A stretch of 64,000 nucleotides of DNA from Bacillota bacterium (GTDB taxonomy: Bacteria; Bacillota; Sulfobacillia; DUSP01; JBFMCS01). The DNA lies in NCBI GenBank assembly GCA_040754315.1, contig JBFMCS010000062.1, positions 12,081-76,080 on the forward strand. The letters are read 5' to 3'. The position numbers and the translations under genes are program-made. The notes beneath the pieces were generated by a model. That model made no database searches. It was not told the DNA's origin and worked only from the letters and a program-made list of their open reading frames with translations. This document shows, one piece after another, positions 32,013 through 42,089 of the stretch (position 1 is its first letter; every line of letters starts with the position of its first letter).

Positions 32013-33194
32013 GTGAAGAGAGTCAACATGGACCACGGTGCCGCAACCCCTCTACACCCTGCAGTGTGGGAGGCAATGAAGCCCTTCTTCCTCGAGCACT
32101 TCGGAAACCCCTCCAGCGGGCACAGCCTGGGAGCGGGACCCAGAAGGGCAATCTCCGAGGCCAGGGAGAACGTGGCCGCGCTCATCGGGGCGACCCCTGA
32201 GGAAGTCGTGTTCACATCCTGCGCCTCCGAGGCCAACAACATGGCCATCAAGGGGATCGCCGCCGCTAGGGGGCCCCAGGGAAACCACATCATCGCCTCA
32301 TCCATAGAGCACTTCTCAGTGCTAAACCCCCTCAAGACCCTGGAGAAGGAGGGTTTCCGGGTAACCCTGCTCCCGGTGGACCGCTATGGCCTTGTGAACC
32401 CGGGCGACCTGGCCTCGGCCATCACGCCCGGGACCATCCTGGTGTCCGTAATGGCCGCCAACCCGGAGATCGGCACAGTGGAGCCCCTGGAGGACCTGGC
32501 GGCGGTGACCCGGGAGAGAGGGATCCTGTTTCATACAGATGCCTGTGCCGCCGCAGGCCGGGTGCCGCTGGACGCCGGGGTGGGGTTCGACCTCCTGACA
32601 CTGGCGGGGGACCAGCTACGGGGCCCAAAGGGCAGCGGCGCCCTCTATGTGCGCCGCAGGACCCGCCTCCTTCCCCTCCTAGAGGGGGGAATCCAGGAGA
32701 GGGGCATCCGGGCGGGTACGGAGAACGTCCCTGCCATCGTGGGCCTGGGCAAGGCCGCTCGCCTGGCGGCCGAGACAATGGGGGAAAGGGCAAGGTGCCT
32801 TTCCGGTCTCAGGGACGAGCTCAGGGATGGCCTCTTTTCCCGGATCCCCCACCTTCACCTGAACGGGCACCCCGAGAGACGCCTCCCTGACAACCTCCAC
32901 GTATCCGTGGAGTTCGTGGAGGGAGAGGCCCTCCTTCTCCACCTGGACATGGCAGGCATCAGGGTATCCAGCGGTTCCTCCTGTACCTCCCAGGCACTGA
33001 AGTCCTCTCACGTGCTGGGCGCCGTGGGCCTGGCCCCCGAACTCGCCCAGGGCTCTTTGCTCTTCACTTTGGGGCAGGATAACACCAGGGAGGACATCCC
33101 CTACGTCGTAGAGGAGCTGGCCCGGGTGGCCAACCTCCTGAGGCAGATGTCGCCCCTTTACCACAACTACCTTAAGGAACATGGAAAAAACTAG
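32013..33194 (+). CDS. Cysteine desulfurase-like protein lacking the PLP lysine
   Basis: A 393-residue class V aminotransferase fold protein close to IscS/NifS. Kept features are DHGAATPLHP, His100 (SSIEHFSV), Asn150/Glu152 (ANPEIG), Asp176 (HTDA), the GTEN segment and the persulfide cysteine Cys324 in SGSSCTS. However, the canonical His-Lys before GPKG is Asp200-Gln201 (LAGDQLRGPKG), so the lysine that forms the PLP Schiff base is absent. The usual Gln after Asp176 is also Ala179. TusA-like and DsrE-like genes follow within 35 bases. It may be a persulfide carrier or a non-PLP homologue rather than an active desulfurase. Confidence 0.85.
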   Translation: MKRVNMDHGAATPLHPAVWEAMKPFFLEHFGNPSSGHSLGAGPRRAISEARENVAALIGATPEEVVFTSCASEANNMAIKGIAAARGPQGNHIIASSIEHFSVLNPLKTLEKEGFRVTLLPVDRYGLVNPGDLASAITPGTILVSVMAANPEIGTVEPLEDLAAVTRERGILFHTDACAAAGRVPLDAGVGFDLLTLAGDQLRGPKGSGALYVRRRTRLLPLLEGGIQERGIRAGTENVPAIVGLGKAARLAAETMGERARCLSGLRDELRDGLFSRIPHLHLNGHPERRLPDNLHVSVEFVEGEALLLHLDMAGIRVSSGSSCTSQALKSSHVLGAVGLAPELAQGSLLFTLGQDNTREDIPYVVEELARVANLLRQMSPLYHNYLKEHGKN

Positions 33195-33224
33195 AACGCC
33201 AGGCAGTCAGAAGGAGGGGGTCAA

Positions 33225-33482
33225 GTGCCCGGGGATAAGGAGAAATATAGCCAGGTGCTGGACTGTGCCGGGCTGTACTGCCCCGTGCCGGTGATGAGAT
33301 CACGGGAGGAGATGGACCGCATGTTTCCCGGGGAGATCCTAGAGATCATCGCTGATGACCCTGCGGCGGAGGAGGACATTCCCCGCTGGGCCAAGAGGGC
33401 AGGCCACACCGTGGTGAACATGTGGAAGGACGGGAGTGAGATACACTTCTTGATAAGAAAGGGCGAGAACAAGGAGGAGTGA
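33225..33482 (+). CDS. TusA/YedF-family sulfur-carrier protein
   Basis: An 85-residue protein of the TusA/SirA family. It carries the hallmark CPVP (CGLYCPVPVM-type motif with the active cysteine near residue 19) and the two-layer fold pattern ending in HFLIRKG. These proteins accept a persulfide from a desulfurase and pass it on; YedF members also occur in selenium metabolism. The GTG start has AGGAGGGGG upstream. It lies 30 bases after the desulfurase-like gene and three bases before the DsrE-like gene. Confidence 0.88.
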   Translation: MPGDKEKYSQVLDCAGLYCPVPVMRSREEMDRMFPGEILEIIADDPAAEEDIPRWAKRAGHTVVNMWKDGSEIHFLIRKGENKEE

Positions 33483-33485
33483 GCG

Positions 33486-33851
33486 GTGAAGAAGATCCTC
33501 TACGTGCAGACTAGCGGGCCGGAAACCCCCGAGAGACTCTATTCCCCTCTCATCCTGGCCCAGACGGCACTGGCCATGGACATTGAGCCTACCATCTACT
33601 TCTTGGGCCTTGGCCTTAAGCTCCTGGTGAAGGGCGAGGCTGAGAGGATCAGGGTTGGGGCCTTTCCCACTGTTGCGGAGGTGCTCAAGGACACCGCCGC
33701 CAAGGGGGTGAGGATCGTGGCCTGCCAGCAGAGCATGCAGTTGTTCGGCGGCAGCGTGAAGCCTGAGGACATCATGGAGGAGGCCATCATCGCCGGGGCG
33801 GCCACCTTGAATGACCTGGCGCTGGAGGCCGACGCCATACTAACCTTCTAG
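33486..33851 (+). CDS. DsrE-family sulfur-relay protein
   Basis: A 121-residue protein of the DsrE/DsrF-like fold, with a central cysteine in VACQQSM (about residue 79) at the position used for sulfur binding in DsrE/TusD-type proteins. The GTG start has GGAGGAG at good spacing. Together with the two genes before it, it forms a three-gene sulfur or selenium relay unit. The final acceptor is not encoded nearby. Confidence 0.82.
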   Translation: MKKILYVQTSGPETPERLYSPLILAQTALAMDIEPTIYFLGLGLKLLVKGEAERIRVGAFPTVAEVLKDTAAKGVRIVACQQSMQLFGGSVKPEDIMEEAIIAGAATLNDLALEADAILTF

Positions 33852-33990: not shown

Positions 33991-35076
33991 TTGAGCCGCT
34001 GGCGACAGAGGTGCCTGTTCCTGGTAATCCTGTCCCTTGCGTACGCCCTCTTCTCATGGGCCGGTTTCGCCTCTCCCTCCCCCATCCTGTCCCTGGAGCC
34101 CGCGGAGCGTGATGCCCTCTCCAACCTGTTCCTCCTGCTTCTGAAGATGGAGCGGTCCAGGGCACGCATGGATGAACTGGATGTGGAGATAGGGGTTGTC
34201 CAGGAGGACATTCACAGGCTGGAAGAGTTGCTGGAGGAGACAGAGGCCAGGTACCGTGAGGCCCGCGCCAAGACGGGCACCGCCCTGCGCTGGCTGCACC
34301 GGATGGGCCCCACCTCCTACCTGGAGGTCCTCCTTGGAGCATCCTCACTCAGGGACTTCCTGGTCAGGGTGAACCTGGTGTCATCCGCGGCCAAGGGGGC
34401 CCTCAGGGTCCTGGCGGAGGTCCAGGAAGAGAAAAGGTCCTTTGCCTCCACCCGGGAGGACCTGGATGCGGCCCGGGATCGCCTTAGTGTCCTGGAGGAG
34501 GAAAGGAGCGCACTGGCCACGGCAGGCCAGGAATACGAGAGGGGTAAGGAGGGCCTTGCAGCCTCCCTGGGCCCCCGTGCGCCCTCAGTGTTCACTGAGA
34601 TGGATCGCCTTCAGGGCGCCTGGAACAGCCAGGCCAAGCCCTACCTGCTGAGGCTCCCCGAACGACTCTCGGCTCTCATGGAGAAGGGGATCATGCCCGA
34701 GGGGGTCACCATCACGCCCTCCCTCTTCAGCGTGAGGGTGAAGATACCGGAGTCCGGGCTCAATGCGGTCCTGGCAGAGGAAGCGGGCCTCAAGGACGCG
34801 GCCTTCGAGTTCGAGCCCGGGGGAGCGCGGCTCAAGGTCCCCTCCCTGGACCTCACGCTCCACGGGAGCCTCTCCGTGACCCCCCAGGGGCTTTTAGCCT
34901 TCAGCGTATCCCAGGTGGAATTCTCAGGCCTTACTATCCGCAGCGACCCTGTGCTCGAGCCAGTGTCTAGCCTCTCCCTGGACCTGGGGCCTTCCCTCCA
35001 GGGCATGGTACCCCAGAGCATCAGCATGGACCAGGACTTCATAGAGATGACAGTCAGCCTGGGCGGCTCAAGATGA
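33991..35076 (+). CDS. Secreted coiled-coil protein linked to FtsEX
   Basis: A 361-residue protein with an N-terminal signal or anchor segment (CLFLVILSLAYALFSWAGFA), then about 150 residues of heptad-rich coiled coil (roughly residues 45-190) and a beta-rich C-terminal domain ending in SISMDQDFIEMTVSL. The coiled-coil part resembles those of PcsB, CwlO and EnvC, which FtsEX controls outside the membrane. No NlpC/P60, CHAP or M23 hydrolase domain is visible. The TTG start follows AAAGGGG. The ftsE gene starts 19 bases later, so this is a likely FtsEX partner that acts as an adaptor rather than a hydrolase. Confidence 0.7.
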   Translation: MSRWRQRCLFLVILSLAYALFSWAGFASPSPILSLEPAERDALSNLFLLLLKMERSRARMDELDVEIGVVQEDIHRLEELLEETEARYREARAKTGTALRWLHRMGPTSYLEVLLGASSLRDFLVRVNLVSSAAKGALRVLAEVQEEKRSFASTREDLDAARDRLSVLEEERSALATAGQEYERGKEGLAASLGPRAPSVFTEMDRLQGAWNSQAKPYLLRLPERLSALMEKGIMPEGVTITPSLFSVRVKIPESGLNAVLAEEAGLKDAAFEFEPGGARLKVPSLDLTLHGSLSVTPQGLLAFSVSQVEFSGLTIRSDPVLEPVSSLSLDLGPSLQGMVPQSISMDQDFIEMTVSLGGSR

Positions 35077-35095
35077 ACGGAAGGGGGTTTTGGGG

Positions 35096-35785
35096 GTGAT
35101 AGAGGCTAGAGGCCTCTCCAAGGTATATCCCAACGGCAGCGCGGCCCTGACGGGTCTTGACCTTACTGTGAACACAGGTGAGATGCTATTCATCAGGGGG
35201 CCCAGCGGGGCCGGGAAGACCACCCTCCTCCGGCTGCTGATGGGGGTTGAACAGCCCTCATCAGGCTCCCTTCGACTGGGCAGCCTTGACATGAAGGGCG
35301 CGGATGCCCGCACTCTAAGGAACCTCAGGAGGAAGATGGGTGTGGTATTCCAGGACTTCCGCCTGATCAAGGGCAGAACCGCCCGGGAGAACGTGGAGAT
35401 GGGCCTCAGGGTGCTTGGTGTCACCGGCCGCCAGATGCGGCAGAGGGCTGGGGAGTACCTGGAGTTCCTCGGCATGGCCTCCAAGGCCGGCACCTACGTG
35501 GACCTCCTCTCCTGGGGGGAACAGCAGAGGGTAGTGATAGCCAGGGCACTGGCCCGAGAGCCGGAGATAGTCCTGGCGGACGAGCCCACCGGCAACCTGG
35601 ACGACGCCTCCTCCGACCGGGTGCTGGCACTGCTCATGGCGGCGCGAGACCGCGGGGCTACCGTCCTGGTGGCCACCCATGCCTCCCGCATGCTGGAGAG
35701 GCCGGGTCACCGGGTGATTACCCTGGCGGAAGGAAGGGTTGTTCAAGATGCTGCAGGGCATTTTGAAGGGGGGATGGCCAGGTGA
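35096..35785 (+). CDS. ftsE: Cell division ATP-binding protein FtsE
   Basis: A 229-residue ABC ATPase: Walker A GPSGAGKTT, Walker B IVLADEPTGNLD and the FtsE-like start VIEARGLSKVYPNG. The signature is LSWGEQQRVVIARAL, with Trp for the first Gly of LSGGEQ; the second Gly is kept. The GTG at 35096 follows AAGGGGG by eight bases; a TTG at 35090 is less likely. It overlaps ftsX by four bases. FtsE with FtsX transmits ATP hydrolysis to extracellular cell-wall hydrolase control. Confidence 0.88.
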   Translation: MIEARGLSKVYPNGSAALTGLDLTVNTGEMLFIRGPSGAGKTTLLRLLMGVEQPSSGSLRLGSLDMKGADARTLRNLRRKMGVVFQDFRLIKGRTARENVEMGLRVLGVTGRQMRQRAGEYLEFLGMASKAGTYVDLLSWGEQQRVVIARALAREPEIVLADEPTGNLDDASSDRVLALLMAARDRGATVLVATHASRMLERPGHRVITLAEGRVVQDAAGHFEGGMAR

Positions 35786-36651
35786 GGCACCTGGGCTACT
35801 TCACTGGGGAAACCCTCAGGGCCCTCAGGCTCCATGCGGTGGCCAACCTCGTATCGGTGGCCTGCGTGACCCTGGCCCTCCTGACCCTCAGCTTCTTCCT
35901 GGGGGCCTGGTGGAACCTGGAGCATCTCCTGGAGGTTGCCGGGGCAGAGTCCCAGATAGTGGTTTACCTCTACGAGGGCACCGCGGAGGAGGACGCCCTC
36001 GCCCTGGCGGGCATCCTGGCCGAAGGTCCCGGTGTCCATGGCACGCGGGTGGTCACCGGAGAGGAATCTCTCTCCCGGATCCAGGCCATGCTGGGGTCCG
36101 GCATTGACATGGCTGGGATTCTGGAGGGCTATAACCCGTTTCCTCCCTCCGTGGAGGTGAGCGTTCTTCCCGAGAGGGCGCGGGAGATTGCCGCCTTCGC
36201 CCGGAACCTCAGGGGGGTGGATGCGGTAAGGGATAACGAAGAGATACTGCAACCCCTGGCCAGGTTAACCCGGGCGGTCCGGTGGATCGGGACCGTCGCC
36301 TCCCTGGCAGTGGTTACGGCCGTCCTTGCCCTGGTGTCGCACATGGTGCGCCTGGGCATCGCTGCCCGCAGGCAGGATATGGAGACCCTCAGGCTCATGG
36401 GGGCCTCGGAGTGGTTCCTCGCAGCCCCCTTCCTCTTGGAAGGGGTAGCCATAGGGGCCCTAGGCGGGTTGTTGTCCCTGGCAGCTGTGGCCATACTGTG
36501 GCCCGGCGCCTATGGTCTCGTTGGGAGTTCCCTGCCCTTCCTGCCGCTCTTGGAATGGACAGGGATCTTCTGGAGGCTCGGCCCTCTCCTGTTATGCCTG
36601 GGACTGGTCTCAGGCCTTCTGGGGAGCGTGATCTCCCTGAAGTCCCCGTGA
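35782..36651 (+). CDS. ftsX: Cell division permease-like protein FtsX
   Basis: A 289-residue membrane protein with the FtsX layout: an N-terminal helix (VANLVSVACVTLALLTLSFFL), an extracellular domain with QIVVYLYEGT and PPSVEVSVLPE, and three C-terminal helices with RRQDMETLRLMGAS between them, where FtsE docks. The GTG start overlaps the ftsE stop (GTGA). With FtsE and the secreted coiled-coil protein it should form one complex. Confidence 0.88.
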   Translation: MRHLGYFTGETLRALRLHAVANLVSVACVTLALLTLSFFLGAWWNLEHLLEVAGAESQIVVYLYEGTAEEDALALAGILAEGPGVHGTRVVTGEESLSRIQAMLGSGIDMAGILEGYNPFPPSVEVSVLPERAREIAAFARNLRGVDAVRDNEEILQPLARLTRAVRWIGTVASLAVVTAVLALVSHMVRLGIAARRQDMETLRLMGASEWFLAAPFLLEGVAIGALGGLLSLAAVAILWPGAYGLVGSSLPFLPLLEWTGIFWRLGPLLLCLGLVSGLLGSVISLKSP

Positions 36652-38139: not shown

Positions 38140-38664
38140 CTACTTGGCCGGCCTTGCCACCTTGACCTTTGCCGGCCTGAGGACCTCGTCGTGGAAGGTG
38201 TAGCCCTTCTCCAGTTCCTCGCACACAGTCTCCTCGTCTACCCCGCTACTGTCGAGGACTACAACGCACTCGTGAACCGCGGGGTCGAACCCCTTTCCTT
38301 CGCACTCGAAGGCGCACACTCCCTCGGCTATGAGCAGCTCCTGCATCTGCCGGTGGATCATCTTGACCCCCTCCAAGAAGGACACCCCGCCGGTTTCCTC
38401 TTGGCCGATGGCTCTCTCCAGGTTGTCAACAACGCCCAGGATCTTCAGGAGGAGGTCCCTTTTGCCCCGAAGGATCATGCGCCCCAGGTCTCGTTCTGAG
38501 CGACGCCGGTAGTTCTCCATCTCCGCCCGGGCCTTTAGGAAGAGCTGCCAGTTCTCCTCAGCCTTGAGCCTTAGTTCCTCGAACTCGTTCCGGTCACCCT
38601 TGCCTTCCCCAGGCTCCTGGGCATCTTTGGTGTCGCACTTCATCTTGTCCTGGTTCTCGTCCAA
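38140..38664 (-). CDS. grpE: Nucleotide exchange factor GrpE
   Basis: A 174-residue GrpE: an acidic, disordered N-terminus, a long helix (LFLKARAEMENYRRRSERDL) and the beta domain ending GYTFHDEVLRPAKVKVARP, the family signature. It releases ADP from DnaK. The TTG start has AGGTGA upstream. It lies 22 bases after dnaK. No dnaJ follows; the next sequence downstream is the decayed dehydrogenase gene. Confidence 0.95.
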   Translation of the reverse strand: MDENQDKMKCDTKDAQEPGEGKGDRNEFEELRLKAEENWQLFLKARAEMENYRRRSERDLGRMILRGKRDLLLKILGVVDNLERAIGQEETGGVSFLEGVKMIHRQMQELLIAEGVCAFECEGKGFDPAVHECVVVLDSSGVDEETVCEELEKGYTFHDEVLRPAKVKVARPAK

Positions 38665-38686: not shown

Positions 38687-40603
38687 CTACTTATCCTCGT
38701 CCTCCTCCTTGAACTCGGCATCGATCACGTTGTCGCCGGACTCCTGCTTGCGCTCTTCGCCGCCGGCAGGCCCTGTCTCAGGCCCTGCCTGGGGCTGGTC
38801 CGTGGCCTTGTAGAGTTCCTCCGCCAGCTGGTACGTTGCTGCCTTCAGTTCTTCGGTCTTGGTCTTAACGAGGTTTGCATCCTTGCCCTCCAGGGCCGAC
38901 TTGAGGTCCTGCACGAGCCCCTCAACCTTGGTCTTGGTTTCCGGTGACACCTTGTCACCCTGTTCCTTCAGGGTCTTTTCCGTGCTGTAGACCAGGCTGT
39001 CAGCAGCGTTCCTGACCTCCGCCGCTTCCTTAAAGGCCTTGTCCTCCTCCGCGTGGATGCTTGCTTCCTTCACCATGGACTCCACCTGTTCCCTGTTGAG
39101 CTGGGTCGAGGCGGTGATGGTGATCTTCTGCTCCTTGCCCGTGGCTTTATCCTTGGCAGTGACCTTCAGGATGCCGTTGGCGTCGATGTCGAACTTCACC
39201 TCGATCTGGGGTATACCCCTGGGGGCAGGCGGGATCCCCACCAGGTGGAAGCGGCCCAGGGTCCTGTTCCTCCTGGCCTCGCCGAATTCACCCTGGAGCA
39301 CGTGGATCTCCACCATTGTCTGGTTATCCGCAGCCGTTGTGAATACCTGGCTCTTCTCCGTGGGTATTGTGGTGTTCCTCTCGATGAGGTGAGTAGTGAC
39401 GCCCCCAAGGGTTTCGATGCCGAGGGAGAGGGGGGTAACGTCCAGCAACACAACATCCTTGACGTCTCCTGCCAGAACGCCTGCCTGGATGGCTGCCCCC
39501 ACGGCCACCACTTCGTCAGGGTTGACTCCCCGGTGTGGCTCCTTGCCAGTGAGCTTCCTTATCAGCTCCTGGATCACCGGCATCCGGGTAGCGCCGCCCA
39601 CCAGGATCACCTCATCCAGGTCCTCGGGCTTCAACTTGGCGTCCGCCAGCGCCTTGCGGAAGGGCCCTACTGTCCTTTCCGTGAGGTGGGCCGTGATCTC
39701 CTCGAACTTGGCCCGGGTGATCTTCATCTCAAGGTGCTTGGGCCCGGACTGGTCCGCGGTGATGAAGGGTAGGCTAATAGTGGTCTCGAACACCGTAGAC
39801 AGTTCCGTCTTGGCCTTCTCCGCCGCCTCCAGGAGCCGCTGGAGGGCCTGGCGGTCCTTGGTGAGGTCGATCCCCTGGTCCTTCTTGAACTCGCCGGCCA
39901 CATACTCAAGGAGGGCATGATCGTAGTCGTCGCCGCCAAGGTGAGTGTCACCGTTGGTGGACTTCACCTGGAATACGCCGTCACCCACATCCAGTATTGA
40001 GACGTCGAAGGTGCCACCCCCCAGGTCCCACACGAGGATGGTCTCACTTGCCTTCTTGTCCAGGCCGTAGGCCAGGGATGCCGCCGTAGGCTCGTTGATG
40101 ATACGCAGGACCTCCAGGCCGGCAATGCGGCCCGCGTCCTTCGTTGCCTGCCTCTGGGCGTCGTTGAAGTAGGCGGGTACCGTTATGACTGCCTTGGTGA
40201 CTGGCCCTCCCAGGTACTTCTCGGCGTCCTCCTTCATCTTCCTGAGGATCATGGCAGAAATCTCTTCCGGGGTATAGTCCTTCCCCGTGCTGGGTATATT
40301 CACACGAACTCCCTGGTTGGGGCCGGGATCCACCTTGTAGGGGACGATCTTCATCTCCTCGGTGACCTCGTCGTGCCGCCGGCCCATGAAACGCTTGATG
40401 GAGGACACTGTATTCTCCGGGTTCAGGACACCCTGCCGCTTGGCCAAGAGGCCTACCAGCCGTTCCCCGGCCTTCGTGAAGGCCACCACTGAGGGGGTAA
40501 GCCGGGAACCCTCGGAGTTGATAATCACCGTGGGCTTGCCCGCTTCCATCACAGCTATCACGGAGTTCGTGGTACCAAGGTCTATTCCCACAACCTTACT
40601 CAC
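38687..40603 (-). CDS. dnaK: Chaperone DnaK (Hsp70)
   Basis: A 638-residue Hsp70 with the three family signatures: IDLGTTNSV at the start, [14 protein letters not shown] near residue 195 and [17 protein letters not shown] near 335. The substrate-binding domain and a Glu/Asp-rich tail ([14 protein letters not shown]) follow. It is a complete ATP-dependent cytoplasmic chaperone. The 5' end overlaps the hspR stop by eight bases, so both are read from the hspR promoter. Confidence 0.97.
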
Positions 40604-40883
40604 TGCTCTTCACCTTCCCTTCTTCTTTTGCCATTACCGCTTCCATGTGGAGTATGGCCTTGACTCCAGCCACGTTAACCCCGTTCACCTTCATCAGGCG
40701 GCATATCCTCCCAAGGATCTTAAGGTCGTTCTGGGAGTAAAGCCTTGCCCTCTTCCGGGTCCTCAAGGGCTCCACAAGGCCCTTGCGCTCAAGGAGTCTA
40801 AGCATGTGAGGGCTCACCCCCAGCAATCTTGCGGCTACCCCTATAGTGTAAACGGGCTCATCTGGTCCCTGTATACCCTCCAT
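40596..40883 (-). CDS. hspR: MerR-type heat-shock regulator (HspR-like)
   Basis: A 95-residue MerR-family protein: [28 protein letters not shown] is the winged-helix DNA-binding part and [18 protein letters not shown] the second helix pair. HspR repressors typically precede dnaK, as here. The ATG at 40883 is chosen, with GAGGAG about ten bases upstream; the frame is open further but would place the start beyond the promoter. It is probably an autorepressor acting with DnaK as sensor. No classical HAIR inverted repeat was seen upstream. Confidence 0.88.
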
Positions 40884-40917
40884 TCCCGCTTCACTCCTCG
40901 TTCCGGTCCCTAAGAGA

Positions 40918-40946
40918 ATTATAGAAAGCCTGCGTGGTTCTGTCAA
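40918..40946 (-). promoter_or_regulatory. Perfect-consensus sigma-A promoter of hspR-dnaK-grpE
   Basis: Read on the minus strand, TTGACA (40946-40941) and TATAAT (40923-40918) are separated by exactly 17 bases, matching the vegetative consensus at all 12 positions. The start site would be near 40911, about 28 bases before the hspR ATG. Confidence 0.85.
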
Positions 40947-41057
40947 TAATGTTAATATGGCTGAATGAGATAATCTAGGGGAGGTTGCCAGGGCAATTGG
41001 AAAGCGGGTGGTTTCCCACCCGCTCCTGAGTTGCGTCTTTCGGGCTCTGAGAGGTGC

Positions 41058-42089
41058 CTAGTAAACACCCTGTCCCGAGTAGGCCATGTGACCCTGGGCA
41101 TAGGGACTTGCCCTGAAGCCCACGCCTTGCCCGTAGCCGCCGGCTCCCACTCCATAGCGGGTGCCCGGAGGCCCGAAGGTCTCAGTCCTGGCCCAGTCGG
41201 GAAGCCCTGTGGCGTACCCTCCATATCCCATGCCATACCCGCCCTGGTAGATGCCCTGCTGCTGCATGGGACTTGGGTGCGCCGGCTGGTAACCGTAGCC
41301 GCCGGCTCCCACTCCATAGCGGGTGCCCGGAGGCCCGAAGGTCTCAGTCCTGGCCCAGTCGGGAAGCCCTGTGGCGTACCCTCCATATCCCATGCCATAC
41401 CCGCCCTGGTAGATGCCCTGCTGCTGCAGGGGACTTGGCTGGAACCCGTAACCGCCAGCCCCTACGCCGTACCTCGTGCCCGGAGGCCCGAAGGTCTCAG
41501 TCCTGGTCCAGCTGGGGATCTGGCCCATGGTGTAGTAGGGGCTCTGGTAGATCCCCTGCTGGCCACCGTAGCCTCCCCCGATGCTCCCCGCAGACATGGC
41601 GTCCTGGTAAATGGCGCCCTGAGCCTGTGAGTAGGGGTCTTGGTAGATGCCTTGCTGTACATAGGGGTTCATTCGATATCCTCCCGTCTGTCCCGCGGCA
41701 GGCCCACCGGCTTGGTAAATGCTGTCTTGACCCACCTGGGAGTAGTAGCCACCCGGGTTGCCCTGGGCGGTGGGACTCTGGCGCCCCCCTCCGGGAGCAC
41801 CGCTGATGGCTTGACTTGCCTCCGACGCAGTGTTGCTCAGCCTGTTGAGCATCTGAGGATCAACCCCAGTAACCCGGTACCAACCCTTGGAACTTAGATA
41901 GTCGAACACCTTCTTGGCATGCTCCTGGACATCCCCATGGATCTGCTTGAAGACGTTGCGGACCTGCGGGTTAGAGGCCTCCAGCGTTGCCTTGTTGTAA
42001 AGATCCGAGAAGTACTTTTCGGAGGTCAACAGGTCTTCAGCGATTTCGCGATCCCCTAACCCAGGGATGCCCGGCCCTATCATGGACAT
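41058..42089 (-). CDS. CotF-domain spore coat protein with Gly/Tyr/Gln-rich repeats
   Basis: About 343 residues. The first 75 form a helical CotF-type domain (IAEDLLTSEKYFSDLYNKAT, then VQEHAKKVFDYLSSKGWY). The remaining 260 residues are low-complexity and rich in Gly, Tyr, Gln and Pro, with repeats containing QQGIYQ and TRTETFGPPGTRYGVGAGGY. Such tails are common in spore coat proteins. The ATG at 42089 has GGGGGA seven bases upstream; an ATG at 42095 lies too close. It lies next to a second small coat-like gene, supporting a sporulation role. Confidence 0.8.
   Translation of the reverse strand: MSMIGPGIPGLGDREIAEDLLTSEKYFSDLYNKATLEASNPQVRNVFKQIHGDVQEHAKKVFDYLSSKGWYRVTGVDPQMLNRLSNTASEASQAISGAPGGGRQSPTAQGNPGGYYSQVGQDSIYQAGGPAAGQTGGYRMNPYVQQGIYQDPYSQAQGAIYQDAMSAGSIGGGYGGQQGIYQSPYYTMGQIPSWTRTETFGPPGTRYGVGAGGYGFQPSPLQQQGIYQGGYGMGYGGYATGLPDWARTETFGPPGTRYGVGAGGYGYQPAHPSPMQQQGIYQGGYGMGYGGYATGLPDWARTETFGPPGTRYGVGAGGYGQGVGFRASPYAQGHMAYSGQGVY
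41131..41445. repeat. Tandem 162/153-bp repeats inside the coat gene
   Basis: The unit at 41131-41292 recurs at 41293-41445 with almost no base changes over the first 140 or so positions; a third, diverged unit starts near 41446. Units are 54 and 51 codons, so the frame is kept. The near identity points to recent duplication or recombination. Confidence 0.9.

Follow-up and report, generated by a model that had tools for sequence, protein, structure and literature searches.

Organization of the module and its coiled-coil partner

The window analyzed here, a 64,000-nucleotide stretch of contig JBFMCS010000062.1 from a Bacillota bacterium, contains at positions 33991-36651 a module of three tightly ordered plus-strand open reading frames (ORFs): a gene for a coiled-coil protein with a predicted C-terminal TULIP domain (CC-TULIP), followed by ftsE and ftsX paralogues. 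Coordinates are positions within this stretch, and loci, genomes, and contigs are labeled L###, G###, and C##, respectively. The CC-TULIP protein (33991..35076, TTG start; 361 amino acids), delineated by the ORF list, Pfam, and AlphaFold2, comprises a hydrophobic helix at residues ~2-24, which may serve as a signal or an anchor, an antiparallel coiled coil at residues 37-232, and, as judged from profiles and predicted structure, a TULIP domain corresponding to the C-terminal half of LmeA at residues ~240-356 (34708..35058). The tip of the coiled-coil hairpin, placed by the helix ends in the model, lies at residues ~104-130 (34300..34380). The FtsE paralogue (35090..35785; 231 amino acids) was recognized by the Pfam family ABC_tran, and comparison with relatives suggests that GTG at 35096 is its likelier start. 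The FtsX paralogue (35782..36651; 289 amino acids) carries an extracellular domain at residues 58-149 and a C-terminal permease part, and its gene overlaps ftsE by 4 nucleotides. A promoter and terminator scan gave no useful lead. The original prediction of a coiled-coil protein encoded with FtsE and FtsX at this position and lacking a hydrolase was confirmed by the ORFs and by Pfam searches at E ≤ 10.

The coiled coil of the CC-TULIP protein is PcsB/EnvC-like. Its match to the Pfam family CC_PcsB (27.4 bits against a cut-off of 27, E 3e-6) was reproduced at E ≤ 5 in all ten members of A1, an alignment and profile of full-length homologues in which the coiled coil is present together with the C-terminal domain. 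In a later scan of eight more fusions at E ≤ 0.05, seven matched CC_PcsB, four of them over cut-off. Full-length homologues with 33-40% identity to the CC-TULIP protein (L005-L008) are encoded in other genomes next to ftsE and ftsX, which argues that the linkage is more than chance. A hidden hydrolase domain was rejected: Pfam at E ≤ 10 returned no hydrolase family, M23 and LytM-like domains included, and a search of solved structures with A1 matched PcsB (4cgk, E 0.0064) solely at profile positions 11-191, that is, in the coiled coil. An NCBIfam scan of the protein added nothing useful.

AlphaFold2 modeling from the window protein and five relatives, one of them partial, yielded a whole-protein model with a mean pLDDT of 87.1 and a pTM of 0.68, in which the helix at residues 2-24 is followed by hairpin helices at 37-105 and 120-232 and a beta-rich end. 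In the Foldseek search with this model, PcsB (4cgk) ranked first, V. cholerae EnvC in FtsEX (8tzl) second, EnvC-FtsX (6tpi) fifth, and RipC (8jia) 21st, with unrelated proteins interspersed; the PcsB, EnvC, and RipC rows have probabilities of 0.85-1.00 and E values of 2e-3 to 0.1. Across five orthologues, the highest density of invariant columns falls at residues 85-124 of the window protein, beside and within the hairpin tip, whose position is probably comparable to that of the FtsX-binding tip of EnvC and RipC.

Probable kinship of the C-terminal domain with LmeA

In all likelihood, the C-terminal domain corresponds to the TULIP half of LmeA (PF11209). Other genomes were searched for this domain, as had been proposed with the original prediction, using a profile built from the C-terminal part of the homologues (A5). 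Among 154 genomes of the class, 37 had a match. In 23 of them a long frame spans the linker and was taken as a fusion, and the other 14 have standalone proteins only, in frames of 194-284 amino acids. Among 398 genomes drawn from the phylum, 92 matched, a count that includes the source genome and one other class member, and 49 of these have a long frame covering the linker. All six standalone matches that were scanned proved to be LmeA over the Pfam cut-off. In fusion L059, one protein matches both CC_PcsB (E 6.5e-13) and LmeA (E 1.2e-7; profile positions 91-214 of 217) over cut-off. Fusion L065 matched CC_PcsB only, L056 and L057 matched neither family over cut-off, and the ftsEX-linked fusion L154 and the unlinked fusion L213 matched LmeA below cut-off, at 9.2e-5 and 1.1e-4, respectively. 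Fusions that match LmeA cover only profile positions ~74-216 of 217, leaving the N-terminal half of the profile unmatched. The LmeA model search found no LmeA match in the source genome.

Alignment of A5 with nine LmeA proteins by hhalign gave a probability of 97.9% and an E value of 4.9e-13 over 115 columns, a result that is not independent of the A5 search, since seven of the nine proteins were found by A5. The predicted C-terminal domain alone reached a pLDDT of 89.3 and a pTM of 0.82. When this model was aligned with 995 chains by VIA, the top four were all TULIP proteins, namely YceB (Z 7.7, 112 residues, rmsd 3.4), BPI 1bp1 (Z 7.3, 122 residues), CETP (Z 5.2), and BPI 1ewf (Z 5.2), and the next eleven rows include P47 (twice), LBP, and an E-Syt2 SMP entry. 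The LmeA profile matches, VIA, and hhalign overturn the possibility of a completely new fold; the "novel beta-rich end" of the original prediction is most likely a TULIP domain related to LmeA, and it did not turn out to be a known hydrolase.

The predicted TULIP domain may bind lipid. LmeA itself binds phospholipids according to the title of a cited paper and to its Pfam name. Passages of PMC6791001 describe DUF2140 and DUF2993 as predicted TULIPs; for DUF2993 they predict a Chorein-N-like domain in the N-terminal half, followed in the C-terminal half by a TULIP lipid-transfer domain. Parts of PMC7643837 report that, under stress, mycobacterial LmeA sustains the mannosyltransferase MptA and lipomannan.

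A distinct FtsEX subfamily and its distribution

The FtsX extracellular domain was found twice in the source genome. The other copy, on contig C27 (G000), belongs to an ordinary Gram-positive cluster of ftsE, ftsX, an M23 coiled-coil hydrolase (381 amino acids), and a CtpA-type protease, where the M23 and CtpA names are our assumption from the sequence. Given that this ordinary ftsEX-M23-ctpA cluster is also present, the window module is the second FtsEX of the genome, a point that the original prediction did not include, and the two FtsX proteins are 30% identical. In the window FtsX, Pfam identified FtsX_ECD (PF18075) at E 6e-9 (36.8 bits, cut-off 23.5) and the FtsX family at E 2e-7, and the window FtsE has Walker A GPSGAGKTT, Walker B LADEPT, and the ABC signature LSWGE in place of LSGGE. 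The best NCBIfam family for this FtsE, TIGR02673, scored 239.7 bits, below its equivalog cut-off of 264.85, and the window FtsX likewise fell below the NCBIfam FtsX cut-offs (156.4 against 225 and 154.9 against 255 bits). With scores below these cut-offs, the pair is regarded as divergent and was filed as a paralogous subfamily rather than as classical FtsEX.

Phylogeny places the linked FtsEX in a distinct subfamily. When 53 FtsE, of which 24 were linked and 29 canonical, were placed in a tree, the linked sequences occupied one side of a branch with a support of 100/100, and the same division recurred in larger trees of 74 FtsE and 71 FtsX obtained by a short search (SH-aLRT 99 and 100, respectively). 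Also represented in the larger trees are canonical copies of genomes that lie outside the class, along with two extra FtsEX pairs that lack TULIP. The 28 linked loci supplied 27 FtsE (L156 is cut by the contig end) and 25 FtsX of sufficient length, while the 45 canonical FtsE comprise 19 of the 29 in one set, those of 21 of the 30 loci in a second, and 5 more. The ABC signature is aromatic in all 27 linked FtsE (LSWG in 24, LSYG in 2, LSFG in 1) and in none of the 47 others, as LSGGE is read in 45/45 canonical and 2/2 extra FtsE. The ten canonical FtsE omitted from the larger tree read LSGGE too; one canonical FtsE outside the signature count (L020) reads SAGE.

The order CC-TULIP > ftsE > ftsX recurs in 28 genomes from 12 families of the same phylum. 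Within the class, the fusion directly precedes ftsE and ftsX in 14 of the 23 fusion genomes, and among the fusion genomes a second FtsX match is present in precisely these 14. Among the 49 long-frame genomes of the phylum sample, 33 loci were read, those of the source genome, G023, and 31 further genomes. All 31 further loci, which lie outside the class, match full-length A1; ftsE follows the fusion in 14, and ftsX is in view in 13, the contig of G234 ending within ftsE. When 15 of the 28 linked loci were compared, only the three module genes were common to more than three loci. In G496 and G455 (completeness 87% and 97%), the FtsX adjacent to the fusion is the sole FtsX match of the genome, showing that a linked FtsX need not be an additional one. 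The idea that any extra FtsEX carries a TULIP partner was rejected, because 5 of the 19 class genomes with at least two FtsX matches have no fusion match. The extra FtsEX pairs in G095 and G146 (L197:346-2915 and L199:3543-6732) read LSGGE and have a coiled-coil neighbor without a TULIP match, perhaps another type of FtsEX partner. In each of G035, G087, and G096, the one FtsX locus read holds an ordinary pair with LSGGE, next to which lies a match to the M23-type protein; in G096 this match is interrupted by the contig end. The five public records consulted are metagenome-assembled genomes with sediment isolate names, which we take to come from soda lakes.

Fusions also occur without an adjacent FtsX (for example, L150, L152, L159, L160, L163, L165, and L166), and they sit in genomes with one FtsX match (9/9 in the class and 14/14 tested of 17 outside). 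Of the unlinked fusions outside the class, seven were viewed with flanks of about 1.5 kb on each side and ten with flanks of several kb. The generic ABC ATPases near L139 and L215 have weak FtsE scores (45-87 bits) and were kept out of the FtsE counts. The conserved neighbors of unlinked fusions gave no lead, as families were common to 3-6 loci only. In G042, an unlinked fusion (L141:5038-7705, minus strand) directly follows a same-strand ORF for a CtpA-like protease, and the FtsX match lies on another contig.

Standalone LmeA proteins were also located relative to FtsX. Counting only the same contig and strand and excluding 4 of the 48 match rows, which are fusions, 21 of the remaining 44 in the class lie 3.6-14.9 kb upstream of an FtsX domain, and the other 23 have no FtsX domain within 30 kb. 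Three loci (L130, L131, and L132) share the order LmeA, CsaB-like, two transketolase halves, ftsE, ftsX, M23, and CtpA, gene names that we assume from the sequence. The position of LmeA upstream of ordinary ftsEX hints at a second sign of a link between LmeA and FtsEX; the 21 cases are not independent, because related genomes inherit neighborhoods.

Several features of the window surround the module. Directly upstream, at 32013-33851, lie genes for a class-V aminotransferase (cysteine desulfurase-like), an 85-amino-acid ORF that is presumably TusA-like, and a DsrE-family protein. On the minus strand, what we take to be a MerR/HspR-like regulator (40596-40946), DnaK (38687-40603), and GrpE (38140-38664) follow in this order; a dnaK operon headed by an HspR-type gene would be unusual in Bacillota. 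A tandem duplication of a 162-bp unit (41131-41438; 1.9 copies, 99% matches) sits just upstream of the reverse-strand regulator and DnaK genes and overlaps a reverse-strand ORF at 40952-41398.

Interpretation and rival explanations

The module resembles several known systems, and each comparison leaves a difference. With FtsEX-PcsB/CwlO/RipC it shares FtsE, an FtsX with an extracellular domain, and a CC_PcsB coiled-coil partner; however, no hydrolase was found in it, a TULIP domain is present, and the FtsE signature is LSWGE. The gene order also differs, as the partner precedes ftsE and ftsX in the module but follows them in the C27 cluster of the source genome. The bacterial TULIPs YceB/DUF2140, among which YceB is the best VIA match to the C-terminal model, are not known to have a coiled coil or FtsEX. 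LmeA (PF11209, DUF2993) shares the TULIP half, while its Chorein-N-like N-terminal half, described in passages of PMC6791001, is replaced by the coiled coil. In FtsEX-EnvC, the coiled-coil partner likewise lacks hydrolase activity and is among the best structural rows, but according to passages of PMC11627006 EnvC ends in a degenerate LytM domain, whereas the module partner ends in TULIP. The searches made of open-licence literature yielded no description of the module and no paper that joins LmeA with FtsX, a TULIP domain with FtsE, TULIP and lipid with FtsX, or a lipid-binding domain and a coiled coil with FtsEX in Clostridia.

We consider it probable that this second FtsEX, a dedicated paralogue with a secreted partner, drives not a hydrolase but a lipid-binding effector. 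Computation supports the architecture well, with the domains present, the order of the genes and its recurrence, the separate clades, the changed signature, the co-resident FtsEX-M23, and the absence of an Omp85 match, whereas secretion, contact with FtsX, lipid binding, ATP control, and a septal role are inferred. In the proposed mechanism, the secreted partner would hold on to the FtsX extracellular domains by the tip of its coiled coil, and at its far end a TULIP domain of the LmeA kind would take the place of the peptidoglycan hydrolase or degenerate LytM domain of relatives. When the FtsE pair binds ATP, the FtsX domains would shift together with the coiled coil, and the TULIP domain would thereby become exposed, oriented, or loaded. 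It would then bind a lipid, or a wall precursor linked to lipid, on the outer face of the cytoplasmic membrane, possibly at the septum. The analogy draws on passages of PMC11627006, in which FtsX extracellular domains grip the coiled-coil tip (EnvC residues 114-160, RipC linker 110-128) and ATP binding compresses the gripped domains and frees the effector; a motion of the EnvC/RipC type may here act on the TULIP domain.

Several observations weigh against this interpretation. The C-terminus of the window CC-TULIP protein itself has no Pfam match, and its link to LmeA runs through relatives, among which LmeA was found in 1/4 fusions at E ≤ 10, in 2/8 at E ≤ 0.05, and, with the LmeA model over the class, in 4/23 fusions, with G036 over cut-off and G109, G023, and G142 below. 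The VIA Z scores of the C-terminal model stay below 8, and Foldseek gave this model no match at E ≤ 0.001 and no TULIP among the 50 matches listed, so that the fold and LmeA profile evidence must be weighed together. The whole model also lacks a Foldseek match in the PDB at E ≤ 0.001, and although VIA aligned 175 of its residues with EnvC (8tzl_E) at Z 10.8, many unrelated helical proteins score equally high, so this row alone proves little. CC_PcsB was not found in the ftsEX-linked fusion L056 and reached only E 0.056 in L057 (Pfam, E ≤ 10); at E ≤ 0.05 it was not found in L150 and fell below cut-off in L154, L212, and L213. Furthermore, no FtsX stands beside the fusion in 9/23 class genomes and 17/31 outside-class loci, so that the partner can perhaps do without this FtsX.

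An activator in the manner of EnvC, as the original prediction had envisaged, is an unlikely alternative, in which the TULIP domain would be a platform for protein binding, through which FtsEX recruits or activates a distinct peptidoglycan hydrolase, with lipid uninvolved. The PcsB/EnvC-type coiled coil and the non-hydrolase C-terminus agree with that proposal: EnvC shares the plan of a coiled coil plus a non-catalytic domain (passages of PMC11627006) and is among the best Foldseek rows of the whole model. Nothing found points specifically to amidase activation, however. Pfam detects no LytM-like domain, the C-terminal domain is akin to a lipid-binding family, and no hydrolase recurs at the loci, where only the module genes exceed 3 of the 15 linked loci compared.

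A membrane tether appears decidedly improbable, although TULIP and SMP domains do touch membranes. The TULIP domain would then do no more than anchor the far end of the coiled coil to the outer leaflet, and FtsEX would act as a structural clamp or sense the curvature or composition of the membrane. Such a role would suit cells that probably have no outer membrane to receive lipid: Omp85 was found in none of 28 fusion-bearing genomes (23 linked and 5 unlinked, many of them drafts), compared with 7 of 14 positive control genomes. It does not account for the retention of a dedicated FtsEX whose ABC signature is altered. We would hardly expect the partner to be an antagonist or decoy that, lacking a hydrolase, competes for the canonical FtsX or forms inactive complexes and so restrains FtsEX-M23. 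The ordinary FtsEX-M23 in the same genome and the unlinked relatives in genomes with one FtsX match fit such a role, but the linked form has its own FtsEX clade, and its C-terminal domain, needless for a mere decoy, is kept over 12 families.

For a lipid-binding effector driven by FtsEX, the Omp85 result bears on the destination of the lipid. With no Omp85 in 28 genomes, an outer membrane is unlikely, and lipid transfer to one was therefore ruled unlikely as well, on the evidence of a single marker and partly draft genomes. More tentatively, this FtsEX subfamily could possibly have developed from a mechanical switch of wall hydrolases into an ATP-driven lipid-handling machine. Its coiled coil would be a lever for loading or unloading the TULIP domain, whose cargo at the outer leaflet would be a membrane lipid or a polymer linked to lipid. 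In bacteria without an outer membrane, the growth of the envelope would in this way be coupled to the supply of lipid or lipoglycan, and the aromatic ABC signature would mark the changed use.

In passages of PMC11627006, FtsEX is a signal transmitter governing peptidoglycan degradation, and parts of PMC7343993 describe it as also acting in septal synthesis through FtsA. Our findings hint that FtsEX may control lipids besides cell-wall cutting. The aromatic ABC signature offers a simple search marker for the subfamily. If the interpretation is true, a lipid-binding-type effector would widen the range of what the mechanotransmitting FtsEX can drive, division-type machinery would be linked to lipid or lipoglycan handling, and the little-studied LmeA/DUF2993 family would gain a new context.

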